Assembly (NCBI GenBank): GCA_947034885.2
Contig: OX344750.2
Coordinates: forward strand, 9,830,553 to 9,894,552
DNA from: Thuidium tamariscinum
Taxonomy: Eukaryota; Streptophyta; Bryopsida; Hypnales; Thuidiaceae
Direction of reading: 5' to 3'
DNA: 64,000 nt
Positions within the stretch are counted from its first letter, which is position 1; every line of letters begins with the position of its first letter. The notes under the pieces were generated by a model, which worked only from the letters and a program-made list of their open reading frames with translations, ran no database searches and was not told where the DNA came from. The translations under genes and the position numbers were made by a program. Positions 4,168-60,300 of this stretch are shown in pieces.

Positions 4168-5086
4168 TTAACCCCTACAAGTTGAGGACTATGTTTTCAC
4201 CAAAAATGCTCTTGAATTGCAATTTCTAACACAAGTGCAATTTCTAGGAAAAAAAGATAAATTTTGACACATGCAACCGTAGGATCTTGTAGTAAGGTGT
4301 TTTAAAAAGATGCCAAAAAAAATTCAGACATTTCCACCATTTTGACAGCAAGAAATGAACATTTGAATTGGCAAAAATCCTCTTTTTATCCCAACAAAAA
4401 CCCGGGCAGCTGCACTTCACGAGGTCACATTTGTATTAAAGAAAGTTCAAAATGGTGGTACTCTTTGAATTCATTCTTCAATGAAAATTGGCTACATGCT
4501 CAAAAAATTTCAAATCATTTGAAATTGTACAACATATAGGAAAAAAAATAGTATGCAGAAAGAAGTAAAAACTAAAAACTACTTGAAAAGAATGAATTGT
4601 GAAGAATTCTTTTATGAAAATGAAAAAAGGCAATTCTAATGGTTCAATCATTGTATTGAAAAATCTCCAACCAAAATTTCAAACATTTTAGTACAATAAA
4701 GGTTGTATGACTACCCACAAACTACCCCAAATTAAATTCTTCATAACTTTACTCTCATTCATAAAAATAGACTGATTCAAAGCTTGACATGTAGATATAA
4801 ATTTAATAAACCAATTTCATATTTTCTTACAAATAAGAAAATATTTTAAAAGAAATTTTTTTAGTTGCTTGGGTTGCCTAAATGCGTGCTAAGTGAAGAA
4901 ATCAACATACTATGTCATAAATTCTTCATTATGCAGTCAAATGTAATGAAAATTGCAAGGCCTTAGAGCTACTTTGTAGGAAAATGTTTTGTGAAAATTT
5001 CAAAAAACAAAAGAACAAACATTTGTCATGACTTGCTTGAAATTGCTCTATTGCCAAAAATGTAATTAAAGGCTTTATAGGTTTAA
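4168..5086 (+). mobile_element. TTAA-flanked MITE, subfamily A
   Basis: It starts TTAACCCCTACAAGTTGAGG and ends GGCTTTATAGGTTTAA. The interior matches the elements at 43829-44985 and 48298-49144: shared blocks are TGTTTTCACCAAAAATGCTC, GGGCAGCTGCACTT, and AAATTTCAAATCATTTGAAA. Length is about 0.92 kb. It is non-coding; short frames inside are not conserved between copies. Confidence 0.7.
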
Positions 5087-5499
5087 ACAGATCATTTGCT
5101 AATGGAACCATATTTGTTACTATTTACAACAAAATTTGAATATCTTTCTGAATTCAATTTCAATGACAAGCTTCATAAAATGTAGTCAATTTACAATGTT
5201 CTATTACATTCATACATGACAGATTATGCAATTTGTGAGACAATTTTGCCAATCCAACATCCATTTACAAGACACAATATCATGCTCTTTTCATCCAAAT
5301 AAAATATATCATGAGCAAGACCGAGATTTGTAATTTGTAGCAATTAAAAAACACCCAACAATTCAAAACATGTATTCAATTTTACACATATTGCAATACA
5401 TTGTAGATGTTTATCTATATACTATAGTACTATACTAAGCTAGTTATAGGAATGTTGGAAGTGTGCATCTGGTATAGGCCAATTGTGGACACCGTAAAA

Positions 5500-6918
5500 T
5501 CAATTGATCACATGAGGTAACCTATCAGGCTTTTTTTTCACAAGCCGCTTACAATACAAGTGAAACATCCATATAAGGTCTTCATGACTGAATATGGTCA
5601 TTCCTGCATTCTCTCGTTGCATCTTATGGTACCCTACTAACATGCATCCCTTATTGATCCTTTGAGCAATTTTACCAATCGCATAGTCCTTTGACACATG
5701 TGATAAATTTGGAATGATTTCTACATCCACATTTTTTGTGTGCACATATGCAATGCTTGGATCCACCTACCACCTCTTTGTCAACGCCTTGTCCTTCTCT
5801 TTTTCAGATGTAAACGTGTACAAGGATTGCAATGATTCAGTAGCTACAGTAGTCATGCCCCAATTACAAACTCCAATGTAAACGCATGATTCATCCTGGG
5901 AAAAATGAAACATGATGTTGTCTGGAGAAATATCATTGTGTAGATGTTCAGTAAGATGCACCGCATTCATGATGTGTAGCAATGACCATACAAGTTGAGT
6001 GCGTTTCTTCCTCCATCGACCGAGCTAATATGCCCAAATTTACTCCTTTTTCGATACAAAATCCGACATCAATCGAACATAGATGTTGTCTGAATAATCA
6101 TCATCTATAGCCAACATTTGCCTAAGTGTTCCGCCATTCCACCAGTACGAATATCCTTCATTCACCTTTGCATGGACTGCAATGAATTGTATTACTCCAA
6201 GATGTCCAATCCTTATAGCCATCGACTTGTTCTGGTGTTCCATCTATGTAAGTTTAGGTCATATGCCTTATTGGAGGGATTTCTTGGTTGCAAACTCCCA
6301 TGATTCTGATATCTCTGGACAACCTTGAATTCGGACTTTCCAAATTATTGCATACCCTCCCCTCATAATTTTGTCATCAACAGGAATGACGGATGCCGTC
6401 TCAGGAAGTGCTATGAGATGTTGCCTGTTTTGAGTTATTTGAATATGTCCTTTTTTGCTATTCCATCAATCCACTCATCCTTGCCTATTTTGCTTTTTGG
6501 TAAATGGAGGGCATCGATGATTGAATAAATTGCCTTCCATGATGACTTCCTCAAAGCCTTCATCCATTGCATGATAGTTCTTGCCATTTTTTTGTAGAAG
6601 TGATTTCACATTCCACAAAGCATCATGCACTTTACTCTCCAAGAAACAAGAGAAGCCATTTTTCTCTGTTTCATGAAACCACTACGGAACATGGAGGGCA
6701 TTTAACAATCTTTGCCTCATGTCCAGCTGGAATTTTTCTATACACTCCTCTTGATATTTGATGTATTTGATGTCCAAGGATGTGGAGGTTTCACACTCAT
6801 AAAACTTGACAATACATTCAATCACAAAATTCTTTATATATTTCTAAGGCATGTCCTTTGGTGATGGAGTGTTTTGCACCACTTGTTTTCCCTTCCCACC
6901 TTTCTTTGATTTTGACAT
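5500..6918 (-). pseudogene. Protein-kinase-like gene, decayed
   Basis: On the minus strand a start near 6918 opens with MSKSKKGGKGKQ, a basic stretch. The coding-like reading then continues for about 470 codons down to 5500, with several internal stops and at least two frame changes. An N-terminal region of about 150 residues has no recognised domain. Kinase-like landmarks follow in order: a glycine loop-like IMRGGYAIIWKVRI, a FATK candidate for the lysine strand, a hinge YSYWWNGGTLRQML, a catalytic loop HNDISPDNIMF (the HRD aspartate and the asparagine are kept, the arginine is not), and GVCNWGM at the DFG position, where the metal-binding aspartate is replaced by asparagine. A DYAIGKIAQRI segment fits helix F. 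The stops make it a pseudogene; the missing DFG aspartate hints that the ancestor was already a weak or dead kinase. The family beyond kinase-like is not recognised, and it may be a captured copy inside a transposon. Confidence 0.65.
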
Positions 6919-9454: not shown

Positions 9455-9457
9455 ATA

Positions 9458-10404: not shown

Positions 10405-11080
10405 TTAACCCCTAACTACCCAAGGCACGAGAATATAGTGTTTACAAAACTTTGAAGCTAAATTAATCCTAACCAAGTAGCTATTTTTTGTAGTTTGTAA
10501 TTTTGCATTTTTGGGAAAGTTTTTTTAGAAGTCTGCATTTACTGTTACAAATCTAATATGGAAAATGAATGACAATGATTTTCTGTGTAAGATTTTGTGC
10601 AAGCATACCCCTTTCAATCTTCACTTTCCGTGGTGTTGAGAGCTCTTAAAAATGAGCCTCAAATAAGGAGTATAATAGACGTTGGAGAAAAAATCGCATT
10701 GAAAATCCATTTACCAAAATTGTAGAGTAGATTTTCAGGTGATATAAATTGATTGGAGTTATACATGTTAGGCCCTTTCACCTCATATTTTGTTGGTCAC
10801 CAACTTCTTGGCTTTAACTTGTGAAAAGAGGATAGAAACACTTTACATCACTTTTACAGTTCTGACACCTTCATGCCTCATGGACAAACAGTATAATCTT
10901 TCACTCTATAAGTGTTATTGTTGTGTTTTCTTTTCCTATGCAATCTCTAACATATCTAGTTTGAATTCGTACGATTAAAATTTTTAAAAATTTGATACAA
11001 ACTATAAAAATGTTGGCATTTTATTCAACTTAGAGCAAATTCTAAGAAGCTCAAAATAGGCCTTGGATATTAGGGGTTAA
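10405..11080. mobile_element. TTAA-flanked MITE, subfamily B
   Basis: It starts TTAACCCCTAACTACCCAAGG and its right end reads inward as TTAACCCCTAATATCCAAGG, so the inverted repeats match at most positions. It is 676 bp, bounded by TTAA on both sides. The interior matches 36071-36689 along its length, with blocks such as TTTGCAAAACTTTGAAG-like, GTGTTGAG and TTCTAAGAAGCT. Non-coding. Confidence 0.85.
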
Positions 11081-11570: not shown

Positions 11571-11609
11571 TCACTTCTTCTCTCCTTTAGTGCCAAATCA
11601 AACATGCTA

Positions 11610-11813
11610 CAACTACAAGAGAAAGGAGTGTTTTCAGTAGTGTCCTAGACATCACGTCTTTTAAATATTGTCTTTTAAGTAAGGTTTTAAGTAAAATTTT
11701 ATTAAAAAGACAGTCTTTTTAGTAAAATTTTATTTAAAACCTTACTTAAAAGACAATACTTAAAAGACATGATGTCTAGGACACTACTGAAAACACCCCT
11801 TTCTCTTGTAGTG
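11610..11813. mobile_element. CACTA-type foldback MITE
   Basis: The 204-bp sequence is palindromic almost throughout, with arms reading CTACAAGAGAAAGG...GTGTCCTAGACATCA and back. The right end is CTCTTGTAGTG, the canonical CACTA terminus inverted; the left end has one extra base (CAACTACAAGAG). A 3-bp duplication is not evident here. It shares its arms' outer block (GTCCTAGACATCA) with the copy at 44600-44821. Confidence 0.8.
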
Positions 11814-12032
11814 TATTATTGCTTCAAGCGCTAGTTGCGTCCTACGTGGTAGAGAGAAGGGATCATTATTTTGATGTTACATTATTATGTGATTGTGGTG
11901 GGACTCCGGAAGGTTGTGCAATTTACAATGTTCACTTATTGTGAGTTCAAAACAATTTTTCTTCAAGTTTTTACAACTTGAAATTGTCCATCATGGCCAC
12001 AGAAGGTAGTGCACATAGAGGTGGCAGAGATC

Positions 12033-15000
12033 ATGGTCAATAGAGGTTCAAGAAAAAGGAGGTTTGTGATGGGGCTTCACTATGAGATTTGGGATGATCT
12101 TAACATCAAAGTGGAGACCGGTTGGGAGAAGGAGGGAGCAAAATAATGGACTTGCAAAATGTGCAAAAAATATGTGAAAATGTACCACATTGACAAGTTG
12201 TGGCCTCGAAAGAGTCATGTAAGCCACACGTAGGATTTCTATTGTAAGCCACAAATTTGCAACAGTGCACATTTTATTCATCAATTGCAAGAAGTGTGGT
12301 GGGTTCTTTTTGGAAAGTAACCAATGAGTAAGGGCTATATAAACTACAGCTTAGTGTCCATGGTGTATGCAGAATTTGTATTGGCCCACAAGGTGGATTC
12401 AAACTCATTTCCAACCACTGTTCAATGTCCAATTTTACTGCCGAGCAATCAAAAAGATATTCGTGACTTGTACAAGTTGAAGGCACCAGTAAATGTGGCC
12501 AACGTGACATCAGTAGTCATGAATGTTAGAAGGGACACAATTCAATTGCATGTCATGCAGTCCCAATAGAAAGGAACAATGATTGTTCTAGAGGTGTTGA
12601 GGGAGAGGGGTTTTTAACTGTTCCTACAATTCTGATAACCATACCAAATGAATCAATTGTTGATGAACAAAGCATTGTTCAAAACCAACAAATGCATTTG
12701 GAAGAGGTTGGGGCACGTGAATCGGCACGACAATCGATGGGTGAACAAATTGCACAGGCCTATGATGTAATCAATAATCTAATTGATAGCAAGGTCTTAG
12801 AGAGCTTTACATACGCTGACTACAATGGGAAAGTGGCAACAATGTCAAGCCCAATATTCAGTCCAAGAACAGAAGTACCTTCATTTCCAAAAAATGAAGA
12901 GCAGTTGAACAACGTGGCAATAAATCAAATTACTACCAACGCAAAGAATGAGAGCAAGCATCCACATTTGTTTGCTCTTAATACACTCCAGTGAGACGCT
13001 TTCCAACAAATACCGAATGCCAATGAGCTCAAAGACTTGTTGAAGTGCTCTATTGAATTGAAAGCATTTGAAGAAGAGTAAGGGCAATGTGAGTCTGTAA
13101 ATGAGTCAAGCACCTCAACTCAACCTGATGAACAAAGTGGATTGGGGCACTTCATTCAAACTGCAGCAATGCTGTCATATGTGGCCCGATGTGTAGCTGA
13201 AATGACTTTTTCTATGATAGAAATGTCACAATATTTTGCCCTATTGTCACTTGACTTCTTGAAGGCTGCTTTGTCTTACCAAAAGTTTTCCTTGTATTTG
13301 TTGCCGTTTTTGGAGGATAAGACAGAAAACCTCAAACGTTTAGCAACTTTGGAAGAAGACAATAAGAAGTTGAAGGAAGAACACGACGACTTAAATCAAC
13401 ACTTCAAGAAGTAGAAAGAATGAACCAAAAATACAGTGGAGACCCAAGCTTACTTGAATTTAGATTTGGAGGACGATGTAGAGAGCTTGAAAACGGATAA
13501 ATCCCTTAAACAACGTAATAGAGTCCCATTTGTGAAGACATCGTAAGAGAGAAACTAACTTTTTTTTCTTTTGAGAAGGTCGAAGCAGTGGAAAAATTTA
13601 GCCAAGTGAGGTTGCATGAGGTTGAAGACAGTCCTAAACAGAAAGGGAAGGGACTTACCATCATCGTGTAGCCTAATCCAACATTTCAAGATGCTTTAAT
13701 GCAAACTGAAGGCAATGACGTTGTAGAGTAGAAACTCAAATTGGATGAGGCCATCCAAGAAAAAGTTTGCACCTATTTGGGGCTCAAACGACTGAAATAA
13801 GTGTGTGACATGCAATTACAATTCCCGGAGGGCAATTCAGACTTTTGCTGGTTGGTTTGGGTACAAAAACTTCAAGACAAACCTTCCATAGTATTTTGAG
13901 CAATGAAAGGGCTCTTTAAATTTGCATTGAAGTCGGATGAAGAATGCAATGTTGTAGAGATTTCTTTGAATCAGTTGAAGAACATGTTTGAGTTGCATCC
14001 AAAAGGGGACTACTGACATTACATGTTGGGGAAACATGGATGCAATGTTTGAGTGCCTAAACCATACAAAAAAGAAAGACCTTCCCTTCATCAATTGGGC
14101 CCTAGAAGTAGAGGAAGGATGGGTGCCTTACAACACCTTTTCAGCACACATAAAAGAAAATGTGAAGATAGTAGTGCATTCTTGTGATTCTCTTTTCGAA
14201 ATCTTAAAGGCTAAATGTAGCCTTTGTCAAGGCACATTTGGTCCCAAGGAAGCTTTGAGCCAATATTGCCACACTTTTTATATCATATGCATTGTGAAAG
14301 CATCCCTCATTCGTTCGATTTGTACTGAGTGTCACTCGCCAATGAGCCCTAAGTTTTATGAAATGCTTAGAATTGCGGAAAGTATGCCCCTTGGCCACGA
14401 ATACAATCGATGGATCCTTCCACTTGATCAAGGGCCATACAACTTTCAAAATTTCTTGCATTGGGGGAAACCTTTAATATGGAATTGTATTCAACAACAA
14501 CATGGACTATATAAGAATTCCAAAGAACCGAAAGATACCTTCATGTGGATGACTATGGATAGAGACGTGGAGTTGCAAGCCTATGGTATTGAAAACGATG
14601 AAAATCAAGAATTGTTTTGTCGTAGTATGGCTGTATGGGAGGGCATTGGAGCATGCAATACAGGAAAAAAAATTGATTTCCAGAAAAAGAGGTTCAAAAA
14701 GGGCTAGATGGTACTTGGGTGGAGGAAGAGCGGGTTCAAGAGTTCCATAAGCAATAAGATGCATACAATCACAATTTGATAGGGAGGGCCTTTTTTTTTT
14801 TTATTAAAATTGAAAGAAGCAGCACAAGTTTGTACTTCAATGGACATAGATGGGCAGTTGAGTATTATAGGACATGCATTGGTAGATGTGGAAAGGGCCT
14901 TTGATAGGAGGATGAGTGACATTATTACTTATTGAAAGACATTCCTATTGGGAGGAGAGGGACCGACATGATTATACATGAAAAATGATGACAAGGTAGT

Positions 15001-15394: not shown

Positions 15395-15940
15395 TTAACC
15401 CCTAAGCGCCCAAGCGACCATTTTTTGGTCGCTGCCCGAAGTCGGGCACCTTTTTCGGGCAGAAAAAAAACTTTTTATAATTTTTTTTTTCCAAATTTTG
15501 AAAAGATTGGATTGCCTTTCAACATTTATATTCCAAACTAAGATCGGTACGGTCAAACAAAAGATATAAGAAAAATAGAACAAAGTGTTTAATAATGCCT
15601 AATGTTGAAAAACATACTATTTAGGGAAAGTGTTGATGCTCTCATTACTAAATATTTTGCATTTTTTTACAAATCAATGAAAATCATAATTTTGACCAAT
15701 CAAAAAAAAATTCAAATCCTAAAAATAGAAATTATGATTTTAGTGAATTTTTGAAGTTATATCTTCAAAATTCATTTGAAGAAAATCTAAAAATAATTTT
15801 TTAATTTTGACTATACGGATACTTTTTACTTTTTGTGCTTTACATTATCTTCTTTGATGCTAACTTCAAAAAAATTATAAAGCTTGTATTTTATAGCACA
15901 TTTGTGTTTTGTTCTAACCCCTTGGGCTTTTAGGGGTTAA
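15395..15940. mobile_element. TTAA-flanked MITE
   Basis: It starts TTAACCCCTAAGCGCCCAAG and its right end reads inward TTAACCCCTAAAAGCCCAAG, a near-perfect 20-bp inverted repeat, with TTAA at both ends. The 546-bp interior has a GGTCGCTGCCCGAAGTCGGG hairpin near the left end and is otherwise AT-rich. It separates the two decayed genes. Confidence 0.85.
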
Positions 15941-17515
15941 TTAGAATACTGGAAATCAAGTGCAGTAATGATATGTTTTTATTTGCTTTCACAAAATATA
16001 TATAAATAAATAAGTAAAATATTTATTTTGACTTTCTTTTGCTGCATTGTATATTTCCCGTCATGTATTTCTCGAGTGTAAAGTGTAAAATGTAAACCAC
16101 TAAACTGACCTCCGACCTCCGACCCGTCTACCTGTTCGATCGGCCAACGGTGGAGCCCAATCAACGGTGATCAATACATTTGGGAAGACTATAAGTGTAA
16201 AAAAGTTGGCATTTTCAAGCACTCTTGAGAAACTGAATGCTAAGACTTTCAAGAATTTGGAACTGCAAACTTTTGTATTTCTTGCTTGATATTGCATAAT
16301 TCAGTGGACAAGGGGGCTCTGGTTTCCAAGGCTTTGTATACATATTATTTTTTATCTTTACGATACTATTTATCCTAAACCTATATAGATACAAGTGGAA
16401 TCCATTATCAACGAATCAAGTGGATTATGATGAGTAAGGATTCCTTTTGTTTGTATATCTCTAGGCTGAAAGACAATAAAGTGCAGTGTAGGGCTTGTAA
16501 CTTGGTGTTTACAAAGAGACATAGTCATATGTTGAACTTTTTAGGATATGAAGACAAATCAAGTTGTCGACTTGTCGTGATACAGGAGTTAGCCTTTGTT
16601 CAAGATTAATTGAATCAGTTCGGACTTAGTTTGTCCATTGCAAGGGACTCTTTTCACAAAGATCTCTTGAACAATGTAGATGGCGGTGACACACCTATGG
16701 TTGATAGTAATATTTCAAATGGAAGAAACACGCCTCATGCTACCATTGCTGCACAAAAGGGTTCATGTACACCGCGGGAAGAACTTACTATCGTAGCTTC
16801 CTGAATGAATCCAAGTACTGAAAGGTCTAGTGAACGTGAAACTTTGAGGGCATCAAGTAGTAGGCCTTAGATGCAAAGTAAGTTACGAGATGGATTTGAC
16901 GAAGCAAGTAAACGCAACTTGAATGCGGTGTGGGCTAATTTCTTTTATGCGACAAACATACCATTTTCTGTAGCACGGAATCTAGCATTCAAAGAAGTGG
17001 TGAAGAAAATAGCAGAGTTCAAGAAACTATACTTACCACCGTTGTATCACAAAATACACCATAAATTACTTGACCAAACGAAGGCAGATATCAAGGGAAA
17101 GCTCCACAAAAAGATGGATGACAACATTAAAAAATTTGGAGCAACATTGTCTATTGATGGATGGCATGCTTGTGTCTTGTGCGGGTGAACAATTAATAAA
17201 ATCAATAGATACAAGTGAAATCGACAAAAACTCACCATATTTGACGTCTGTTTTGGAGGACCTCTTTAAAATAGTAGGTCTTAAGAATGTGGTGCAAGTG
17301 ACTATAGATAATACAGCTGTAAATCCAATAGCTTAGAATTTAAATAGCCGCTAAATATTTTTCAGCAAAGTTGTGTGGTGTACATCGTAAACTTGTTGTT
17401 AAAAGATTGGGGGAAAAAAGAATCTAATTTCATTATGATTGAGCGTTTGTTGAAGGTCAAGGGTCCATTACAATAAAGTGTAATGGATCCACAATGGGAT
17501 CAATATGTGTAGAAG

Positions 17516-18404
17516 TTAACCTTTTAGTGCCCGGTTGACCACTTTTTTTTTTTTGTGTTTTTGGTCTAATATTGTTTAAAATACATTTGATCACAAAAAT
17601 CTCAAAAAACAACTCAATTAGAGTGTCTTCATGTGCTTCAAACAAAACCAATTTCAAGAGAATTGGAGCACTAATGCATTAGCTATGAGGTTGCAAACTC
17701 AAATGGACTAAACCTTCAAATGGGAAGTATGCAACAAAAATATGAAAAGATATCAACCAATTTGTGAGATTTTTTTGTATCTTGATGTTTTGACAAGGCA
17801 TAAGTGTTGCTTTGTACTCTCATGAATTCCCAAAGTAAACTTATGCATTGAAATTTATGTAGTGCTCACAAATTCTAAAGGGTCATTCAAGTAATTGATT
17901 TTTGAGTATTAAACAAAACAATTCAAATTCCAACAAGGCTCTAAAAGCAAACATGATTTAGAGGTACATTTTGCTTTCTTCAATGTACCAAATCTGCACA
18001 TTTCAGAAGGGTACTGCTTTTGATGACCACAAATGACCATTTTTTGTGAATTTCAAAATTTTGTATTTAATTTCAAAAAGCTTCAAAAAAATATGAAATG
18101 ACTTGGATTAGATGCATATTCTACTTGCCTCTCAAGAAAAATTTACTAAAAAATATTTAAAGATGTTCCACCTCCCCAAAATTCAATTCTAGCCCTTAAA
18201 AGGTTGATTTATGGACCTTTTACCTTATTTATAGCAATTTGTACCATTGGATGAGTTTGATTTTTTGTTAGGTTGAAGGATCTCCTTTAAAGAAATGCTT
18301 TATACAATTTGATCTAAAATAAGATCCTTAGAGTGGCCACAAAATTCACTTTCTTGAAGAACTACGCTCCCCCCCCAAATCAACCACGGGCACTAAAGGG
18401 TTAA
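17516..18404. mobile_element. TTAA-flanked MITE inside the hAT gene
   Basis: It starts TTAACCTTTTAGTGCCCG and its right end reads inward TTAACCCTTTAGTGCCCG; both ends are TTAA. It is 889 bp. The interior is partly repeated at about 45010-45315, which lacks clear ends. It lies within the transposase reading, between the DUF659 part and the hATC part, so it postdates the gene. Confidence 0.85.
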
Positions 18405-19251
18405 GGAGCAAGAACAAGTTAAAAGCTCGCCAATTGTCTTGAGACGTGAAGAAGACAATAATAGAGGACCATTTTTGGAAGTGCTGCAAGAATTTCAAAG
18501 ATTTGGTGGCTCTTATTTATACGGCGCTATGTGATTTGGATGCAAAGACACTATGTATGGGCAAGGTATATTATACACCCAAACGATTTCTTCATCTTCA
18601 TGTGAACGTAATTGGAGTAGCTATTTTTTTGTTCACAACAAATCTTGGAATCAAATGACGACAAAAAGAGCTAATGATTTGGTGTATGTATACACAAATT
18701 CCAAAGTCTTAGCTACATCAAAGAAAAATGATGAAAAGAAGTGGTACCACAACAACATGAATTTGGACGAGGTAGAGGATTCAGAGGACTCGAAAAAGCT
18801 GATTTTGGAAGATGAAGATGATGAAGATGGTGATTCAGTTTTTGATGATCCAAATCCTATGAATGATGACATTGATAATTTTGATAATGAAATGTTTGAG
18901 ATGCCCAACCAGACCGATGAAGATTTGGAAATCAATGATCGAGAGGCCAAAGACCACTTTGACTTTCATTTGGATGATAATAATTGTGCAAATGATGAAG
19001 GTATACCTTCAATAACCAAATATGTGGATGGAACTGGATATATAGCTATCCAAAACCTTCTAGCAAACAAAGATGATAGTCATACACAAATAAGAGAGAG
19101 AATGGGACAACCGTTACGAATGATGGGGTCTTGCAAATGAATGAAGTCATTCCGATTTTTGAATCTCCATCCATAACAATAGCAGAAGTGAGAGAAAATA
19201 TTGAACACAATGACAAGGGAGGATGTGGAATGAAGGTCCAAATTCAGACAA

Positions 19252-20343
19252 GGGTGAATGCAAGAAACACTTAAAGCCTTTTGTCACACCCTATTTTTTT
19301 CTTTTTCTTTTAGCTATAACTTTTGTGTTTTAGCTCCAAATGACTCAAAATTTATAGGGAAGATACTCATGGCTATTATGTATCTAAAATGAATTTTAGA
19401 GATTTTTCAAAAATAATTTATTATTTTTAAATAACCCCGAAAATTTCTCACAATACTTGATTTAAGGGTTTTTAGCACCATGTTTCTCCAAAAGAACGAA
19501 TTTTGATCTAAAATTTGGAGAGCATGGTCTCCTAGTAGACTTATACCTACTGTTTAAAGGAATTCTAAAAATACTTATTTTTCAATGTTGTAGAAGTCCA
19601 CAAAGAGAGCTTCATTCTGCATTTTTTTCCAAAGGTATAAAACATTATTTTGGTGATTTTTTTGGTTAAATCTCATCACCAAAAAGTTTTTTCAAGTTTT
19701 GGATTTTTATGTATTTTTCAAAAAAATAATACTATTTTTGACAAATTAAAATGTCACAAGTTGTATTTTCTTCACTAGAATTCTATGAGAATTCTATGTC
19801 CAAAGTTCCAGTGAAGAAAATACAACTTGTGACATTTTAATTTGTCAAAAATAGTATTATTTTTTTGAAAAATACATAAAAATCCAAAACTTGAAAAAAC
19901 TTTTTGGTGATGAGATTTAACCAAAAAAATCACCAAAATAATGTTTTATACCTTTGGAAAAAAATGCAGAATGAAGCTCTCTTTGTGGACTTCTACAACA
20001 TTGAAAAATAAGTATTTTTAGAATTCCTTTAAACAGTAGGTATAAGTCTACTAGGAGACCATGCTCTCCAAATTTTAGGTCAAAATTCGTTTTTTTGGAG
20101 AAACGGGGTGCTAAAAACCCTTAAATCAAGTACTGTGAGAAATTTTCGGGGCTATTTAAAAATGATAAATTATTTTTGAAAAATCTCCAAAATTCATTTT
20201 AGATACATAATATCCATGAGTACCTTCCCTATAAATTTTGAGTCATTTGGAGCTAAAACACAAAAGTTATGGCTAAAAGAAAAAGAAAAAAATAGGGTGT
20301 GACAAAACGCAACAAATAGTACAAGTGTTTCTTGCATTCACCC
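19252..20343. mobile_element. Palindromic (foldback) dimer of the 4-bp duplication family
   Basis: Two inverted arms of about 530 bp meet at about 19780-19815. They are nearly identical for hundreds of bases. The outer ends are GGGTGAATGCAAGAAACAC and GTGTTTCTTGCATTCACCC, flanked by ACAA at 19248-19251 and 20344-20347. Each arm matches the left half of the 903-1639 copy, so the element looks like two left halves joined head to head. It splits the C-terminal tail of the hAT gene. The high arm identity suggests recent formation or arm-to-arm conversion. Confidence 0.9.
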
Positions 20344-37123: not shown

Positions 37124-37762
37124 GTTATAAGGTTAAACTTGTCTCTCCTAACGGAGGAGATCCTAAACTAGACGAAAATCACTGGTGGTTCACATCCATG
37201 GGTCATCTTTGGGATGGGTGTGTACTTTGGAAGAAGTGTGCATAGGCCATAGGAAAAGGGCCCCCCACTCATTCCAACCACAAAGAGGTGGAGCAGTTTT
37301 TGGACCATTTGGTTGAGGTGCTACTACAAACATGGTCTGCTTATCATAACATTGTTTACCATCATAATAAGGGAGGGAGGGGTCCTTTGGCATCCTCGGA
37401 AGGGGACCCTGCCACAGTGAACAAAATCGTCTTATATGGCTCCTTGCATCAAGTGATAAGCCCCTCATAGTTATCTGATTAACTGCATGATGCCCTCCTA
37501 GTAGAGGGACAATCATTTCTCACTTATACTATCCACCTATCCACCTATCCATTGCAAAGATGGCATCACCCTCTAAGGTAGAAGGTTCAATAATCGCTCA
37601 CCTAAGAGCTGAGACTCGATTTGGGGGAGGTGAAACATCTTGAAATATTTTTCAGTGTATTTTCCTTGAAAGACAAGTGGAGTTAAAATTTAACCCAAGT
37701 CGTTTCATATTTTTTGGAGCTTTGTGGAATTGGTTATCAAATTTTGAAGTTGAAAGGATATA
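37124..37762. other. Interval without recognised gene
   Basis: Contains a minus-strand open frame of 108 codons (37190-37516) rich in Pro, Trp and His with no recognised family. No terminal repeats identified. Confidence 0.35.
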
Positions 37763-44989: not shown

Positions 44990-45320
44990 TGGAATACGGA
45001 TTGTAGGGTAGGAGGTTCAAACTCCGACAAGACATTGAAAGCAAACATGACTTAGAGATACATTTTACTTTCTTCAATGTACCAAATCTTCACATTTTAG
45101 GAGGTGGTTGCTTTTGATGACCACAAATGAACACTTTTTTTCAACTTTAAATATTTGCAACTAGTTACGTGAAGCTCCAAAAAATATGAAACAACTTGTG
45201 CTAGATGCCTATTTCACTTGTCTTTCAAGAAAAATTCCCTAAAAAAATATTTCAAGATGTTTAACCTCCCCAAAATTTAGTTCTAGTCCTTAGATGGTCA
45301 GTTTAAGGACCTTCTACCTT
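44990..45320. repeat. Fragment related to the 17516-18404 element
   Basis: Shares CAAACATGA.TTAGAG.TACATTTT.CTTTCTTCAATGTACC-type sequence with 17940-18200 over about 300 bases. Termini are not recognised. Confidence 0.6.
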
Positions 45321-45797: not shown

Positions 45798-46061
45798 GGG
45801 TACACCTAAAATTGCACCTCACCTAAAAGTGCCATCTATAGTTGCTGTACATTTCTGAATTCCGTTATGTAACTATTTGGCTGGAGCGCTTTTAGAAACA
45901 GACTTTGAACCTTAATAACTTTTGCATACTGTATCCAAATGCTGCATTTTTTGGTGCATTGGAACGTGCTTTCACTTGCCAAGAAGACTATATGAAAATT
46001 TGATCAGACCAGTGATAGTAACTAGGCACAGTACCAAAAAGTGGCACTTTTAGGTGTACCC
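45798..46061. mobile_element. TIR element (GGGTACACCTAAAA)
   Basis: GGGTACACCTAAAATTGCAC at the left and GTGGCACTTTTAGGTGTACCC at the right form an inverted repeat 264 bp apart. Internally the left end repeats the motif as ACCTAAAAGTGCC. No clear target duplication. Non-coding. Confidence 0.7.
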
Positions 46062-46079
46062 ACCTTAGATACTTCGACC

Positions 46080-48297
46080 ATATATAAGATCCAATGGTGT
46101 CGAACCTGTAGAGGGCAGTTATGGAGTGCTCCTGTGGGACTGCTCCACTGTAAGCTTCAGCTTCCAGCCATGACTTGCTGGGAAGTTGGGGAAACGGGAA
46201 GCCAGGACGGACAGAGAGCTTCAGTTGAATTGCAGCAGCTGAGCAGCAGCTCCGCTAGCCAGTCCGCTAGGGCACTTGGGTACACTGGGGAAGTGGGGGA
46301 GTGGGGGCTCCCCAGCCCAGAGCCAGAGCAGAGCTCAGCTCCGCTCAGCTGCGCAGGACATGAGCTTGGAAGGAAGAGCGGGGTGCCATGGAGTGGACCT
46401 TGGGAGACGCCCGGCCATTTGCGCTGCAGCAGGGGCTCTGCGGTCCTGCCCCAAGGACTGGCAGTGCACAGCCCAAGGGGACAAGGCGACAGAGAGCAGC
46501 AGGGCTCGCTTACGGTAATCAGGAGGTCAACTCCAGGATTACCAGCCACTTAATGGGGGCCCATCAACTTCAATTAATAAGAAGCTTAATCGTGCTCCTT
46601 CGAACCGGGGTCAGAGGTGGGGGAACTGGGCCACGGCCCCACTGCCCTCTGCCCACTGGGGCAGGGGTGGTTTAGGGCTGGACCCTCAATTATTAACGTG
46701 CGCTTAATGATGAGGAGAAGCTCCTGTACTGATTTGAGCTGGAAGTTACTACTGTACGCTCTGCGAGTCTACGGGCTTCACCAAGTGTTAAAAAAAAGAG
46801 AAGAAAAAGGTCCTGCCATCGAAGGTGGGCCCAGCAGGTGGATTTACCTCGGGAGAAAACGCAGGAATTTTTAAAATTTTTTTTCAGTTTTTTCTTTTAC
46901 CAACTTCGGAATTCATATTTGCAAACAGAGACCTCGAATTCATGTGGAAAGTTCTAGAACATAAGCTTACTTGAGACGCGGTCCAAAATAGGTTTTTTTT
47001 TTCCACTTTCACCCGGAGAACCCAACATTTACCTTCTGGGCCCACCTTTGATGGTAGGGTTTCACGTCCTGCAATCTAAAGGGGCCCACCGAGGTCAACA
47101 ATGTGTTTCCCCGAGGAAAGTTCTCGGCAGCTTCGGGGTGTCTGTAAATAGAAGTATGCCCCCTGGACTACTGGAGGCTAAGCCTAGGGGGCTATTTTTA
47201 TACTCTACCCTGCTCCCCGCACCTGTACGTACTTGGGACTCCCTCATCAGCCCCTGTTGTGAAGGGAAGGTCAATGGGCTGGCTTCCAGCTTCCCTCTCA
47301 ATCTCTGTCCGACCAAGAATATTACACTGAGAGTCCGGGCGGGAGGAGATGCTTTCAGCTACTTGTGCTGTGCGCAGAGCAGTAAAGCAGGGGCGTTCAA
47401 TTTGATGATATTAATTGAGGGGAGGAGGGGCACTGCTCATGGCACCACGGCACCCCAAAGTGGGTTATGTATAGAAAATTCGGCGTTCATGGATTTCTAA
47501 ATGGAAACCTTCGAAGGCGATTGGGTTTTTTTGTTTGTTATTTTACACAAGAAAAGGAATACCTTTACTGCACGGAAAGAATACAAAGCTCCCAGCCACA
47601 AGTGGTAAGGAGATTGGGTTTTTGGAAATTCTTAGTACGTTGGTTTCTGCCCCAAATATATCCATTCTTGGACTTCTGAAATTGATTGTTTGGTTGGGTC
47701 AGGGGATTGATGAATTGGGGATCCAAGAGACATGCATTTCGGTGGAAAAGACTGAGTCAGGGGAGTAGAAAAACACAAAGGACAAGTGGGGGGAGGGGGA
47801 AAGGGGGAAAGCGAACAAAATTGAAAAAGAGAGACTAACCTAGGCTTCCATTGGTCCTCATCTCGCCAGAGGGCATTTGATTTATTCGGGATGAAATGGT
47901 GTTTGTTGGGTAGCAATTATTTATGGGTTTCTAAAAGAGGAGGGTAATAAACGAGGAATCTGTTGGAATCAGTTTCCACATGGCCTTAGTTAGGAGACAT
48001 TCAATTACGACTACAACCAGTATTTGCTTTAACATAAAAATAAGAAAAACGAGATGAATTGAATCTACACAGTATCTGGGTACCCCTACTAAGCTTAAGC
48101 GCAGGGGGGCGTTCTTTCCCCCGGGCCCTGGCCCAGAAGTTTGTCTCGCTATTTTGTGGTAGCTATTAATTATGTACTTCTGATACCGGTAACTTATTGG
48201 AAGACTTTAATTTCAAAAAAATGAAATTCAAACTTTCAAACTTCAGTCCCTTGAGGATGAGGGGCACCCAATGGCAAAGGTCAGATTGGGCAGAAAA
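46080..48297. other. GC-rich island of about 2.2 kb, unrecognised
   Basis: Base composition changes sharply at about 46080 and returns to AT-rich near 48200. The island has several overlapping open frames on both strands (up to 170 codons at 46041-46553 plus and 150 at 47048-47500 plus), as expected when stop codons are rare. Their translations are low-complexity (Ser, Pro, Gly, Leu) and match no family I know. There is no similarity to the other repeats in the window. It could be a single-copy regulatory or conserved non-coding region, a decayed gene, or sequence of different origin. Confidence 0.5.
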
Positions 48298-49144
48298 TTA
48301 ACCCCTAAAGCCCTGAACAACGTTTTTTGAGATTATAAATTTTTGGGGTAGCTCACTACGGATAGAGTTTTTCTTTTTTTTCTTTGAAATTTTGATACAA
48401 TGTGTGCCCGAAGAGTAGCTTTAAGGCTTGACAATTTTCATAGCTTTTGACTTCACGGTTAAAAAGTTATGGCAGGATATGCTGTTTTCTTTACTCGGCG
48501 GGCAGCCTAGGCAGCTGAAAAAACTTTTTCAAAAAAACTTTATTTCTAAAAGTGAAATTTCAAATTGATTCTTTAGGTTTATACAGACATAGGAAGCTTT
48601 GAATCAATCCATTCCGATCAATGAGTCAAAAGTTATGAAGATTTTGAGTTTAAGGTAGTTTGCGGCCAGTTACAGAATCTCTACAATACAAAAAAAGTTT
48701 GAAATTCTTCATTTAATTCAATTTTTCAAATTTTTGAAAAAAAATAAAAACAAAAGGTGTAGATTGTTTATTACAACATTTTAACCATTGGGATTGAAAA
48801 TTTTCAATTCCATGAATAAAATGTTCACAATTTAGTATTTTGGTTCATTTTTTACTTCTTTCTACTTACTTATTTTTTCCTATATGTTGTACAATTCCAA
48901 ATGGTTTGAAATTCTTTGAGAATGTAGCCAACTTGCATTGAAGTATGAATTGAAAGAGTAACCACCAATCTACACGGTGGAAATTTCTGAAATTTTTTCC
49001 ACATGTTTACAAACCACCTTACTATAAGATCCTACAGTTACATGAGTCAAAAATGTGTTTTGAGAAAAAAATTGCACTTGTATTAGAAATGGCAGTTTTG
49101 GAGCATTTTTGGTGAAAGTATAGTCAAAAACCTTTAGGGGTTAA
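48298..49144 (-). mobile_element. TTAA-flanked MITE, subfamily A
   Basis: Starts TTAACCCCTAAAGCCCTG; right end reads inward TTAACCCCTAAAGGTTTTTG. It is 847 bp with TTAA at both ends and is the cleanest uninterrupted copy of the subfamily here. Non-coding. Confidence 0.88.
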
Positions 49145-49312
49145 GTCATTTTTGGAAGGAAAAAAAAGTGACACGTGTCAACTTGTAAGTAGTCCAAAAG
49201 TGATGTGGATAACCAAGATCTAGCATGGAAATTCAATTTTGGCATTCAAGTGCCAAATGAGACCTTCAACTGCAGTAGTCCAAATTTTTTCTAAAATTGT
49301 AAAGTCATATTT

Positions 49313-50180
49313 TTAACCCCTACAAGTTTTTGACTATGTAGATACCATAAACACTCCAAAATTGCCATTTCTAGTATACATACCAAATTTTAGGAGAAAA
49401 ATCATTTTTGAACATATGTAAGTATAGGACATTGTAGCATGTTGGTTTTAAGAAGATGCAAAAGAAATTCAGAAATTTTCATTGCATGGATTACAAGTTT
49501 TTAGCTCTTGAATTGACAAAAATCTTTCTTTTAGCCTTGCAAAAACAAGGCAGTTGCACTTCACAAGATCTTATTTGTATAAAATACTATCTATATTGGT
49601 GGTGCTTCTTAGGATTCATTCTTCAAACTAAGTTTGCTACATGTTTGAAAGTATTCAAATCATTTGGAATTGTACAACATCTAGGAAAAGTAGAAAGAAG
49701 TAGATTATAATCATTGGAATTGGTATTTTTCTCTTCAATAACTAAATTCTTAACAATTTTGTACTTTGAATCATCATAAACTTCTTTCTACTTACTATTT
49801 TTCCTACATATTGTACAATTCTAAATGATTTGAAATTTTAAAACATGTAGCAAACTAACATTTAAGAATGAATCCAAAGAAGCACTACCAACATAGATAA
49901 ATTTTTATGCACATGACCATGTGAAGTGTATGTACCTTATTTTCACAAGGCAAGATAAAAGAATTTTGTCAATTCAATTTCTAGAAAACTTACAATCTAC
50001 ATGGTAAAAATTTCTAATTTTTTTTCTATATCTCCTCAAACCAATGCACCACAAGATGCTTCCAGTCACATATGTTTAAAAATGTTGTTTTTTCCTAAAA
50101 TTTGTGTACTTAAACTAGAAATGGTAGTTTTGGAGCATTTTTGGTGAATAGATAATTACAAACCTTCATTTTAGAGTTAT
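49313..50180. mobile_element. TTAA-type MITE, subfamily A, foldback form
   Basis: Starts TTAACCCCTACAAGTTTTTG. Both halves carry the same end type in inverted orientation (CTCCAAAATTGCCATTTCTAG and CTAGAAATGGTAGTTTTGGAG), so it folds back on itself. The right end is degenerate (CCTTCATTTTAGAGTTATTG). It is flanked by two related direct stretches (about 49145-49310 and 50224-50345). Confidence 0.65.
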
Positions 50181-50363
50181 TGGGAAAACTCAAAGACTTT
50201 ATATGGAGGTCAAACTTGAAATAAATTAAGTCATTTTGGGAAGAAAAAAATGCCACATGTCATCTAGTGATTTATATGAGGTGTGGTGGATCCTTAAGAA
50301 TATGACAAGGAAATTCAATTTCAACACAACTTTGCCAAATTAGCCCTTCACATATTGTATTGT

Positions 50364-51609
50364 TTAACCGATAACTAAGCGCTAAATTTTTACAACATAG
50401 CAATTTTGGGCAACTCACTACAAATGGAGTTTTTAGTTTTTTTTTTCTTTAAAATTTTCACACAACAAATTTTTGAGGAGTGCTTTTAAGGCCCAACAAT
50501 TCTTATAATTGTTGACTACATTGTTTAAAAGTTATTGTATGATATGTAGTTTCCATTGCTTTGCAAGCAACTCAAGCAACAAAGAAAACATCTTCAAAAT
50601 TTATTCTTCTAGGAAATAAAATTTTGAAATTGGTTTTTTAGATTTATATCTAAGTAGAAAGATTTGGATCATTCTATTTTGATCAATGAGTCAAAAGTTA
50701 TGAAAATTTTTCATTTGGAGTAGTTTGAAGGGAATTATAGAATTGCTACTCTACACACAAAAAAAAGTTTGAAATCCTTTATTTAATTCAAATTTTAATA
50801 TTTTGGGATTAAGAGAACTAGTTGTAGATTATTTATTATAACATTTTAGCAATTGGAATTGGCATTTTTCAATCCCATAAATAATCTGTCAACAATTTTG
50901 TATTTTAAATCATTTTCTATTTTTTTTCTACTAACTAAGTATTTTTTCCTATAATATGCAATTCCAAATGATCTACAATTTTTCAAGCATATAGCCAACT
51001 TGTTTTGAAGAACAAATCTAAAGAATAATTACCATTTTGGACATTTTTCATATAAATGTGATCAACCCTTTTTTTACTTTTTGAGAAAGTGCCAAGATGG
51101 CAATCACTTCAAATTTGGTGAAGCATTGTATTTCTACATTCATCCATATTCTGGATTTAAAAACACTTTTCTGTCATATTCATACACTTTTTCATCCAAA
51201 TTTGGCAGCTTCATCCATATTTTAAAGAGAATTGAAAAATTTATGGTGAAAAAGAGACATTTATTTTCAAATAGTGCAATCTAACCACACAATGCAAAAA
51301 AAAAGGCTGAATGTAACCATTTGAATATGGTAGTTGCACTGAATGTGACCATTTGAAGTGCAACTGCCCTATTTTACATGGTCTACAGAAGAATATTTGT
51401 CAATTGAAATGCTCATATCTTACAATCTACATGATAGAAATTTGTGAAATTTTTTTAATATCTTCTCAAACCAATTTTCTACAAGATCCTATAGTTACAT
51501 GTGTCCAAAAATGTTATTGGTTTTCTTAAAAGTTGGTACTTCCACTAAAAATGACAATTTTGGAGCATTTTTTTGTGTGAAAACATTCTCAAAAACCTTG
51601 AGGGGTTGA
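50364..51609. mobile_element. TTAA-type element, subfamily A, enlarged
   Basis: Left end TTAACCGATAACTAAGCG, right end CCTTGAGGGGTTGA. The interior matches subfamily A in the minus orientation (CAATTTTGGGCAACTCACTAC; ACAATTTTGGAGC). About 200 bases near 51060-51360 are not present in the other copies, suggesting an internal insertion. Confidence 0.6.
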
Positions 51610-54600: not shown

Positions 54601-54972
54601 GAGTTGGTTGCTAAATGATGAAATTTGGAAGAAGTGTAAATTGGATCTAAAGTGTCATTGTAGTCATGCTTCTTATAGTGAGAGCTAAATTGGAATATTG
54701 ATTCAAGCTAGAATATGAAAATGAGCTAATGAGAGTATTGATTAAAAATATAATATCGGTTTCAAGATGGATAAAATTAAAATTTCTAGTTTGTCTTCCT
54801 ACTTAAATGTTTCCTTTGGAACAAACTTATTATACTAAAAGAATAGCTTCAAATACAATTATTATTCTCCTTTGACAATTATCTCTTGGTCTTTAAGGGG
54901 TTAATATAGAAAACTAATGAAGTTTTTCCAAGTAAGAATATTGAATGTCTTTTAATGATTAACCTTAATATA
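51610..54972. other. AT-rich interval, no gene seen
   Basis: A less AT-rich segment (51650-51980) gives way to very AT-rich sequence. TTAACCCTTAAAAAGAC at 52555, TAACTCCTTAAAGG at 53010 and TCTTTAAGGGGTTAA at 54890 look like single ends of TTAA-type elements, but they could not be paired with confidence. No coding domain was recognised. Confidence 0.45.
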
Positions 54973-55761: not shown

Positions 55762-56441
55762 TTAAACCCTAAATGCCCAAACTCTATTTTTGACAGCATA
55801 GCAATTTTGGGTAGTTCACTATGAATGAATTTTTTTTTTCTTTGGAAATTTTCATACAACATGTGCCTAAGGAGTAGCTTTGAGGCTTTGCAAAAAATAG
55901 GGCAATTGCACTTCACAAGGTCATATTTGTATGAAAAAATGTCTAGGTTGTTGGAGCTTCTATAGGAAAAAATAGTGAGTAGAAAATAATAGAAAATGAT
56001 TCAAAATGCTTAGTTGTTGATAATTTAGTTGTAGAACTGAAAGATGCCAATCAAAATGGTTGTAATGTTAATATGAACAATCTAAATCCTACAATCTATT
56101 TTTTTCAAAAAAGACTAAAAATTGGGCTAAATAAGGGACTGCAAAGTTTATTTTAGAGTTGGGGATTGATAATTGTCTACAAACTAAACTTCCTCATAAT
56201 TTTCATCTAATGAATTGAAATAGAATGATTCAAGACTTTCCACATACGTAGAATCAAGAAAACCAATTTCAAATTTTTGTTTGTAAAAAGCCAAAAGCTA
56301 TGAAAATTATTGGGCCTTAAAGATATTCTTCATCTCCATGTTGTGTGAAAATTTCAAAAAAATAAAAATGAAAACTCCATTTGTGAGCTGCCCAAAATTT
56401 CTGTGTTGCCAAAAAACACAACTTGGTCCTATAGGGGTTAA
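55762..56441. mobile_element. TTAA-flanked MITE, subfamily A, rearranged
   Basis: Starts TTAAACCCTAAATGCCC; right end reads inward TTAACCCCTATAGGACCAAG. It is 680 bp. Both halves carry the same end type (GCAATTTTGGG at the left, CCCAAAATTTCTGTG at the right), so it is partly palindromic compared with 43829 and 48298. Confidence 0.75.
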
Positions 56442-59130
56442 ACAAATGATTTACTTAACATAAAAATAGATGATTTCTATAGTTAGTAGCTTGTCATTTC
56501 AAGGTTAAGACATGAATCTTTCATCCATATTTGGTCAAGTTTGAAGTTGTTTCTTTGGCATATTGGTACAATTAAACCTCGATACTTGTTACCTACCTCA
56601 ATAAGCAATGAAATCTTATATTTATTATATAATTTCATCCCCTTTTAGATCTTCAAACAAATGTATGAGATGTTAATTTTTTAAGTCCCAAGGCATTTTT
56701 TCATTAAGATCTATTCAAAAAAATTGTTGTTTCTATTGCAAAGAGAAAAAACTTCGATACTTATTTTTTAATATATCTAAGCATAATATCTTATACTATA
56801 ATGGTATAAGAATGTGTGGGAGAAATTTCAAAAACTTTGAACACATAGATTGCAAGATATATGTGTTCAAAGTAAACAAAACAAGTTTTTAATACCTTGT
56901 ATAATTAGATCACAAGACTTTGGTTTCTTAAAACTCACACACTTGGTTTTTATACTTTTAGAAATTATTCAAAAGAAATAGGTGTAAGATTAAAGGAAAA
57001 ACGACATCATTAGTAGCTTTAAGATGAAACTAAAACACATTAATTTCAAATGTGATAATGTTTTAGCAATTGCACTAAAACTTGTGGAACTTTTATGTTT
57101 TCAAAATTTTCAAAACTCAAACAAAAACTACAATTCATCATTAAAAAAACTTTAATTCTAGTTTAAGTTTTTGTAAGTTATATTTTTTGCCTCATGGCCT
57201 AAAATTTGAGTTTCTATTAGAAGAGATTTTGGGCCTAGAGAAGATTGCAAGTTCCCTAGAGTTTCCGTATTGTGCAAACTCACCACATCAACAATCTAAC
57301 ATGGTTGGGAGATTACCCCGTTAAATAATATTAATTAATTTGTTCATTGATATTTTTATAAATATCTTTTTGAACATTTTTTTAAGAAAATAAATTTATA
57401 AATTTTGAATTAGTTTTTTCTTAAAGTTAATTTTTTTTAAGTTGAAATAATTAAACTAGTATTAGTTAGTTTAGAGTATAGGAAACAACAAGGAAAAGAA
57501 CATTGAAACAACCTTTCTTTCTTGTTAATTCTCTTCTAATGTGGAGGCATATTTTTTCTCAATAACCTATTGAAATGGAATTTATATTTCTATATAGCTA
57601 TAGTTTTTCTACCTTTAAATTTTCTTTTAAGGAATTATACGAGAAATTAAAATCATATAAACTTACCTAAGCTTTCATTTGTCCTATGAAAGAACAACAT
57701 GACTTTAGGGGTTATTCATTACAAATTCTTCATGTCATACTTTGTAAATATACCTTGTTTTATTTGAAAGTAGTCAAAAAGTTGATAAATTAGAATATAT
57801 AGTATTCAAAAAATCCAAAAAATGAGATTGTATTTAATACAAAATATATATTATTTATCAATATTAAAATTAACTAATTATTATTCATTTTTGACATGTT
57901 ATATTGTTTCATGTGTTAAGAAATCTTCTACTCCCTACTTGCAACATACAACCTCCACCCAATTGTTATAGCCCTTTCTACTATTTTGATTTGTTCCCTT
58001 TACTTCAAACTTGTGAAGAGAATATATTGTTATTTTTTATGATAATTTTTCAAATGATCATAAGTTTGTTATTCACTTTACAAATAAAAAAATTATAAAA
58101 ATTAGATATTTTATTGCAATTTGAAGTTGACTAGGTCAAATACCAAAAGACATTGAACTTTTTATTAAATGTGTTGAATTTTAAGCCATTCTTGGACAAA
58201 TCTTAACACATAAAGAGAATATGGTAGTTGCATACAAAGTCTTCCCTCTTTGTAAAGACCATATTTATAAATGAGTGGCATTGTGTATCTATTGCAATTT
58301 CCTATTTTTTTTATTTTTCTTTGATTGCAATTACCTCTTAAATGGTTGAATGATCATTGAATGTACATGCATGATCTTGAGTAGGTGAATATGAAGTCAT
58401 TTCTTAATGGAAGTTCTTCAAATTTTGTATAAATATGTATAAACTTAGTGTGTATAACTTTTCTCCAATTAAATGCCCAAATTAAATTTATGATGCACTA
58501 AATATGTAGGGTAAGCCATACAACTTCAAGTAGCATGTACAAAACTCTTGTCATAATTTAAAATTTTGGTAGGTATATAATTTATATGATATAAGATGCA
58601 AACGTAAAAAATAATCCATTTGTATAGTATAAATATCTCACTTTAAGAGGAGTTAAATTGTCCCTATTGGACAAATAAATAAAAAATTCCTTCTAACTTC
58701 AATATTATAAATTTTCAATCTATGCAAAAATTTTGTCCACACACTCCTATAGTAGTCTAATATAGATCTATATATTTGAATTTCGAAAAAAGCACACTTT
58801 TCTTTTCATTTAAAAATAATTGCTTTGAAAATTGTGAGTTTTTTCACAATTTGTACCTTCAATAAGCCTCAATTGTTTTGCACTTGGAACCACACATTAA
58901 AGATTCACAATAGGATCATTTGATCAAAACATGCATTAAAAAATCATTGAAAAATCCATAATACTTTTAGTTCTATAAAATAAGACTAATAGTATAGAAC
59001 AAAGGTTGTATATAGAGGTTTGATCATGTGCATATTGAGCTATCATATTGTTGCAAGATAGTCTTATACCATTCACTTTGTAAAGCCCCAATTTTTGTTG
59101 AGCTTAGTTTGTAGGGCATGAAGGTCTAAT
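56442..59130. other. AT-rich interval, no gene seen
   Basis: No family-level similarity, terminal repeats or RNA genes recognised. Confidence 0.4.
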
Positions 59131-59569
59131 TTGGCACTCAAGTGCCAAAATTGAAATTTCATATCAATTTTTTAGGGGTCCATGTTACCTCACACCATTC
59201 ACAAGGCTTACATGAGGCACTTCCTTACAAACTTGAATTAACTTATGTTGAATTTCACATTCATGTAGGAAATGTTGATGGATATGTAAGCATGTGCACC
59301 ATCCATACCTTAAACTTAGGTTGCTTACTTTGTTTATTATGGTGGGATACCTCATAATGTCTATTCTTTGGTTGCACTCTTGGTACCATTGGAAAACTCT
59401 AGATGAGAAGGGGTGCATGGGCTTTGTTTCATGATGTTGAGATTTACAATATAAAAGTCATTGAATTTTTAATTTTTTATGAATTAAAAAAATAGAAGAT
59501 GACTTTTACTTTCAAGTTGACTATGGCACACTATCTAGTCAATAGATATAAATTTGCCTCAAAAACAAA

Positions 59570-60300
59570 ATAACCCTTAAGCAATGTTGGCGCTATTTTG
59601 CGGCGTTTGGTTGACTTCGCAGGGTCATAAGAAGACTTCAATAATAGTTTTTCCATTCACTTTTTTTCATGACCTTTCAAATTGAGTTGTGAAGACTCTC
59701 CAATTGAGTTTTTAGTCTAACTAATGTTTGTTTTCATGTAGTTGAGAAGTAATTAGAGAAAACAAATGGTAGAATTTGTTGTTTTAGTGTATTTTGAAAA
59801 ATTGACTAAATATGAAATTTCTCCTTGAAAATGACATTTTTTGACTTTAAGCCCAACTAATGAAATGAAGGTTCTCTACTCTAGTTTCTACTCCAATTGA
59901 TTTTGGAAATATTCATAAAATTGAATATTTTATTGCATTTTGAACTTTGGCTGCATTTTTAATGTCCATTGCATCCTATTTATAGAAGTATACGGAAATT
60001 GAGTTTCCACCATGATGTTTGTCACTATAATATACACACATGATGAAATTTTCAGATTTTTTGAGATAGTTTTCTATTTGATCAGATTTTTTCTTCATTT
60101 CTTCTTTAAAAAATTTCATAAAAATCAATTTTCCTCGGAAAAATCGAATTTTTTTGTGAAGTATAGAAGACATGTACTTTCATCTCTGAAAAATAAAATA
60201 AACAAATTTCATACATATCTGCTTCCAAAGTGGTAACAAACTGAGTGCCGGGCAAGGAGGCTTCAAACCAGTGGTGATAGGTCCGTCCTTTAAAGGTTAA
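59570..60300. mobile_element. TTAA-type MITE, subfamily D
   Basis: Left end ATAACCCTTAAGCAATG (one change from TTAA), right end reads inward TTAACCTTTAAAGGACGG. It is 731 bp and matches the outer parts of 29345-30550. Open frames inside are not conserved between the copies. Confidence 0.7.

Follow-up and report, generated by a model that had tools for sequence, protein, structure and literature searches.

A 64,000-base stretch of the Thuidium tamariscinum genome (contig OX344750.2, positions 9,830,553 to 9,894,552; hereafter the window) carries a population of elements that are bounded by TTAA and end in CCC. Roughly one fifth of the window (13,109 bases, or 20.5%, counting elements and fragments, with some ends approximate and the later insertions in copies A3 and A6 included) derives from this one end-sharing population. 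The copies are old, non-coding and diverged, and we favor the possibility that they represent piggyBac-type DNA transposons, non-autonomous and mobilised by cut and paste. An initial annotation of the window had proposed the TTAA-bounded, CCC-ended population, and both the motif counts and the alignment-edge test described below confirm it.

Terminal motif, homology edges and element catalogue

The window has a G+C content of 33% and contains 545 TTAA sites. On the + strand, exact counts over the whole window are 18 for TTAACCC and 14 for GGGTTAA; together they make 32 occurrences of TTAACCC on the two strands, compared with a mean of 5.5 and a maximum of 13 across 100 simulations under a second-order Markov model. 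The longer motif TTAACCCCTA was seen 13 times on both strands where 100 such simulations gave a mean of 0.12 and a maximum of 2, and TTAACC-ended inverted pairs with at least 13/15 matches numbered 4 (simulated mean 0.01, maximum 1; 100 simulations). When the four bases following TTAA were ranked against 60 simulations, CCCC came top (18 versus 1.35, maximum 7) and CCCT second (9 versus 1.47); the mirror 4-mer GGGG was found 3 times versus 1.7. Expressed per site, CCC follows 32 of 1090 oriented TTAA sites, or 29.4 per 1000, which is about four times as often as it follows any of 11 other palindromic 4-mers used as controls (0-7.5 per 1000). Three of the GGGTTAA matches, all within a 94-bp tandem repeat, bear no relation to the elements. 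Ends of the TTAACCCCTAAA type are the terminal form of the element population.

A second line of evidence avoids element calls as its starting point. All self-alignment ends in the window (346) were collected, and an end was counted if it lay no more than 3 bp from a TTAACC left edge or a GGTTAA right edge. Twenty-eight of the 346 fell on such edges, at 12 distinct edges; since the ends of high-scoring segment pairs (HSPs) are interdependent, the 12 distinct edges are the safer figure. In controls of 1000 circular shifts the means were 1.08 and 0.86 and the maxima 7 and 5, and the reversed orientation gave 0 ends. Homology between copies tends to start exactly at TTAA.

Fifteen two-ended elements of 229-1246 bp were defined; A5 and C1 are excluded from the 15 because their right TTAA has been lost. 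About eight interior types were found, five of them repeated within the window, in keeping with the several unrelated interiors first proposed. Type A is found at 4168, 33311, 43829, 48298, 49313, 50364 and 55762 (HSP identities of about 65-85%), type B at 10405 and 36071 with a fragment at 36756, type C at 29345 and 59570, type D at 27930, 30957 and 36686 with a fragment at 27391, and type E at 17516 with fragments at 37571 and 45016. Types F, G and H lie at 15395, 28169 and 28396 (left end only), respectively. The elements and fragments are as follows (TSD, target-site duplication; MITE, miniature inverted-repeat transposable element).

4168-5086, + strand: A1, type A; TTAA at both ends; right end set by homology, with 5/14 ungapped end matches
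10405-11080, + strand: B1, type B; TTAA at both ends
15395-15940, + strand: F1; TTAA at both ends; 12/14 end matches
17516-18404, + strand: E1, type E; TTAA at both ends; 13/14 end matches; inside a degraded hAT/DUF659-like region
27391-27571, + strand: type D fragment without intact ends
27930-28172, + strand: D1, type D; TTAA at both ends, the right one in common with G1
28169-28399, + strand: G1; TTAA at both ends, in common with both neighbours; right end set by eye, 6/14 ungapped
28396-28420, + strand: H1, left end only; matching right end not found
29345-30548, + strand: C1, type C; left TTAA kept, right TTAA lost; right end approximate; outside the 15
30957-31185, - strand: D2, type D reversed; TTAA at both ends
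33311-34227, - strand: A2, type A reversed; TTAACTCC at 33311; the other TSD reads TTAT on the + strand
36071-36689, + strand: B2, type B; bases just before the right TTAA lost; right TTAA in common with D3
36686-37136, + strand: D3, type D with a nested B-like fragment; TTAA at both ends; right end set by likeness to D1, 6/14
36756-36997, + strand: B-like left end, lying inside D3; its right end was not found and its extent is approximate
37571-37755, - strand: type E interior fragment
43829-44985, + strand: A3, type A; TTAA at both ends; CACTA-type MITE inside at about 44598-44822
45016-45320, + strand: type E interior fragment
48298-49144, - strand: A4, type A reversed; TTAA at both ends
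49313-50168, no strand assigned: A5, two type A left halves joined as an inverted dimer; no right TTAA remains; outside the 15
50364-51609, - strand: A6, type A reversed; one TSD reads TTGA; interrupted at about 51063-51342 by some 280 bp of foreign sequence
54880-54904, - strand: isolated end, TTAACCCCTTAAAGACCAAG; partner not found
55762-56441, + strand: A7, type A derivative; TTAA at both ends
59570-60300, + strand: C2, type C; left ATAA, right TTAA

Eighteen element starts had been listed originally, each with the TTAACCC terminus or a close variant. Thirteen of them begin with TTAACCC and 17 with TTAA; the variants are TTAACCT at 17516, TTAACTC at 33311, TTAACCG at 50364, TTAAACC at 55762 and, lacking TTAA, ATAACCC at 59570. 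Not all of these positions stand as separate elements in the sense proposed: 33311, 48298 and 50364 are the right ends of reversed copies of the type seen at 4168 and 43829, 49313 is the inverted dimer, 28169 and 28396 have their TTAA in common with the preceding element, and 36686 adjoins 36071. The 18 positions exceed the number of independent insertions, and the list missed the ends at 36756 and 54904. The MITE label itself fits less well than "non-autonomous elements", as many copies are 0.5-1.2 kb long with short, imperfect inverted ends. Exact TTAACCC at 37690, 51964, 52556 and 63148 has no TTAA partner with more than 7/14 matches within 2 kb. The sequence at 52556, TTAACCCTTAAAAAGACAAACCAAG, resembles an element end.

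Target-site duplication and coding capacity

A flank check for exact TTAA had been recommended, and it bore out the proposal in 12 of the 15 two-ended elements, where TTAA is exact at both ends; in the other three it is one base off at one end (TTAT in A2, TTGA in A6 and ATAA in C2). The four bases outside TTAA are equal in 0 of 15 pairs, and the three adjacent outer bases (AAG) that the two sides of D2 have in common are what chance allows. The preferred interpretation of TTAA at both ends, with no outer repeat seen at any of these 15 filled sites, is a duplication of 4 bp. C occupies positions 5, 6 and 7 in 30, 33 and 29 of the 34 tabulated ends, a base tally that is descriptive only, as TTAACC was in part the criterion for choosing ends and the register of two rows is off by one base. 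The inverted ends are short and degraded, follow the pattern CCCC(or CCCT)TAAAnG and are common to different interiors. Over 12 pairs, the matches following TTAA are 13/14 in E1, 12/14 in F1, 10/14 in four pairs and 9/14 or fewer in six.

Empty sites were sought by joining the flanks of 17 elements and of the adjacent pairs D1+G1 and B2+D3 and aligning them to the window. Setting aside the CACTA-type insertion in A3, six junction-spanning matches were obtained; those of A1, A5 (two), A7 and D3 had E values of 0.008-0.41. A candidate empty site for A4 at 50207-50350 (E 5e-14) was rejected: the match rests on the right-hand repeat, and its left side was reached by 190 of 500 shuffles (138 of 500 in the flank shuffle control for the second repeat copy). 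The difference in length between C1 and C2 is not TTAA-bounded. E1 interrupts a degraded hAT transposase-like region (16379-17333 and 18443-19140) whose flanking parts gave a DUF659 match (E 7e-07, below the family cut-off) and, weakly, a hAT dimerisation match (E 0.043); judging by these matches, E1 appears to lie within a dead hAT-like gene. By eye, the hAT-like frame continues across the E1 junction if one TTAA is kept. We dropped this as evidence; only in the DUF659 part, and not at the junction, was there a match to a hAT consensus, and the joined reading had no Pfam match.

No open reading frame (ORF) of at least 100 amino acids (aa) lies wholly inside any element, and therefore none of the elements is autonomous; one ORF of 128 aa crosses the right end of C2. 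The search for an autonomous copy, which the initial annotation had called for, yielded no transposase of the TTAA type among the 49 ORFs scanned of the 124 in the window that reach at least 70 aa. No match in this Pfam scan reached the curated cut-off. The better ones were DUF659, a kinase fragment (E 0.0013) and a ZMIZ-like match (E 0.0018), followed by weak hAT, Tn3, RPW8 and IS66-type matches. Rfam and tRNA scans of the window gave nothing. The element end patterns had 0 matches in viral and prokaryotic contig collections, which says little for plant elements, and the DUF659 ORF had no relative in viral contigs, which says equally little for a plant sequence.

The piggyBac assignment and its alternatives

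According to the accessible text of two papers, piggyBac elements duplicate TTAA, have a CC[C/T]T end and carry inverted ends 12-19 bp long (PMC2872659); as put elsewhere, their first three bases are mostly CCC and their inverted ends span 4-24 bp (PMC10813416). ATAA, as found at the left end of C2, also occurs at piggyBac-type insertions (PMC8634313). The elements in the window combine TTAA at filled sites, exact at both ends in 12 of 15, with CCC at most of the 34 tabulated ends and then C or T. From terminal features such as these, membership of piggyBac is probable, not proved. A plausible scenario is that a transposase encoded at another genomic location bound to the short CCC ends as its recognition sites, excised the element and joined it into TTAA sites, duplicating those four bases. 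The interiors would have been free to change, giving rise to several unrelated interiors under the same ends, and the copies would later have decayed, some being rearranged or broken by subsequent insertions.

Several of our observations weigh against this assignment. The inverted ends are weak (5-13 matches of 14 over the 12 pairs, with six pairs at 10 or more), and a CCCC terminus is one base off CC[C/T]T while fitting the CCC rule. B2, D1 and G1 adjoin another element, so that their right outer bases are not free; A5 and C1 are without a right TTAA, and types F, G and H are each single in the window. The joined-flank search produced no convincing empty site for the TTAA elements within the window, and the Pfam scan of 49 of the 124 ORFs no TTAA-superfamily transposase. 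When inverted 14-mers between paired sites were scanned for generically, TTAA did not separate from AATT: pairs with at least 12/14 matches numbered 12 for TTAA (545 sites), 20 for AATT (1047), 6 for TATA (478) and 0 for ATAT (523), and the majority of the TTAA pairs in it fall within long palindromes. CCC-ended pairs, not TTAA pairs in general, are what stands out. The ends by themselves are, in addition, compatible with Sola3 or with an undescribed enzyme.

Kolobok and Sola3 were named alongside piggyBac in the initial annotation, and it is unlikely, in our estimate, that either of these TTAA-specific superfamilies moved the elements by the same cut-and-paste outline. Sola3 has TTAA as its target. 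It appears by name as an insect MITE superfamily in the accessible part of one study (PMC5199201), and the sources consulted on Sola3 provided no terminal sequence. Duplication of TTAA by Kolobok is described in the accessible text of two papers (PMC9587614, PMC6004289), and the Xenopus T2-MITEs resemble the present elements in their TTAA duplication and large non-autonomous load. However, Kolobok termini read 5'-RR...YY-3' (PMC9587614) and T2-MITE ends AGGRR (PMC6004289), whereas the elements here read CC...GG, and in this respect the ends favor piggyBac over Kolobok. We consider it improbable, too, that an undescribed TTAA-specific transposase lineage was responsible and that the piggyBac-like ends are convergent. 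The CCCC(T)TAAAnG end does exceed the minimal CCC and recurs with different interiors, no transposase was found in the 49 of 124 ORFs scanned, and a land-plant transposable element review names neither piggyBac nor Kolobok in its accessible text (PMC9033089), but this target and this end are already those of a known superfamily, and nothing positive speaks for a new enzyme.

Other readings concern the duplication itself. A Tc1/mariner (Stowaway-like) origin, with a TA duplication and a terminal ACCCC favoring TTAA contexts, is very unlikely. TTAA contains TA, the two readings yield an identical sequence if the outer T and A are both there, and in A2 and C2, two of the three deviating elements, the outermost base is the one that deviates. 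Nevertheless, across the 15 elements 28 of 30 ends retain the outer T or A (the exceptions being in A2 and C2), where a TA duplication predicts more variation, with the qualification that ends were partly chosen by TTAA. Most improbable of all is the reading that TTAA belongs to the element and that a different duplication lies outside it: it would fit with our inability to show an empty site within the window, but the outer four bases agree in 0 of 15 pairs. A 3-bp TAA/TTA duplication of the PIF/Harbinger (Tourist) kind was also considered and rejected, as the four bases TTAA are present at both ends in 12 of 15 elements. Tourist (PIF/Harbinger) and Stowaway (Tc1/mariner) are, like the elements here, short non-coding plant elements with inverted ends; Tourist differs in its 3-bp TAA/TTA duplication (accessible text of PMC10004981) and Stowaway in its 2-bp TA, compared with TTAA in the window.

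For the piggyBac reading there is precedent in other hosts. Coral CMITEs, as described in the accessible text of PMC2872659, have a TTAA duplication, a CCC-type end, short inverted ends, non-coding interiors and tandem neighbours, as is the case here. Unlike our elements, which differ in their interiors and measure 229-1246 bp, they are about 100 bp long with conserved interiors, and one coral family has its ends in common with a piggyBac-like element, whereas no partner was found in the window. Wuneng and Microuli, likened here by description only, also combine a TTAA duplication with non-autonomy (same source).

Elements of this TTAA-specific kind had been called scarce in described plant genomes, a claim that holds only in part. 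As far as their accessible text goes, PiggyBac is listed among seven angiosperm MITE superfamilies in a plant MITE review (PMC10004981) and among the plant class II superfamilies in a plant transposable element review (PMC10794571), and a fern genome table gives 1230 PiggyBac-annotated elements (PMC6890710). A term search of the land-plant review text retrieves neither "piggyBac" nor "Kolobok" (PMC9033089). In the open-licence literature searched we found no paper on TTAACCCC elements of plants. Elements of this kind are thus known already, and the remaining interest lies in their density here and in the missing enzyme. The hAT/DUF659 remnants and the CACTA-type MITEs in the window are themselves suggestive of a plant. 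With a land plant as host, the population implies that a TTAA-specific transposase was once present in a group for which, by the accessible sources, such enzymes are poorly documented. It is possible, if doubtful, that this plant genome carries a large TTAA-specific, CCC-ended population with many unrelated interiors that was mobilised by a transposase lineage undescribed there, be it a land-plant piggyBac or a convergent new superfamily. Finding the transposase would tell a piggyBac colonisation of the lineage from another enzyme with the same target choice.

Arrangement, later insertions and neighbouring features

The elements at 27930, 28169 and 28396 stand head to tail, each step having one TTAA in common, and those at 36071 and 36686 also have one in common, although the last bases of the former are lost there. 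The copies at 48298, 49313 and 50364 form a single array with a repeat of about 130 bp, termed R (49145-49270 and 50226-50350; further copies at 35434-35554 and 59119-59244). By eye, two or three of the four R copies follow a type A left end. Because R follows type A left ends, the array copies may have been copied together and are not countable as independent insertions. R beside type A left ends may also mark a larger composite unit.

The insertions in A3 and A6 are younger than their host type A copies. The CACTA-ended MITE in A3 has an apparent TCA duplication, and its empty site is visible in A1, A2, A4 and A6. The insertion of about 280 bp in A6 (51063-51342) is flanked by AATGTGA and is perhaps a hAT- or P-type element. 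CACTA-type MITEs with CACTACAAG-type ends were seen at 44598-44822 (the copy inside A3), at 11610-11814, where the first end is changed, and at 29774-29868.

Other features of the window include two large inverted-repeat elements with GCAAGAAACACTT-like ends at 19252-20343 and 902-3347, one a 94% foldback and the other with arms of about 730 bp, and a palindromic region at 61556-62554 with a tandem array of 173-bp units. A kinase-like fragment with broken frames lies at 5503-6024 on the - strand (Pkinase E 0.0013, below cut-off). A run of open frames on the + strand at 12321-14704 includes one of 242 aa without a Pfam match and, by eye, a possible zinc-knuckle stretch. Finally, 46000-48000 is an island of 50% G+C in the 33% G+C window; its frames reach at most 180 aa, and none of the frames scanned gave a Pfam match above the cut-off.

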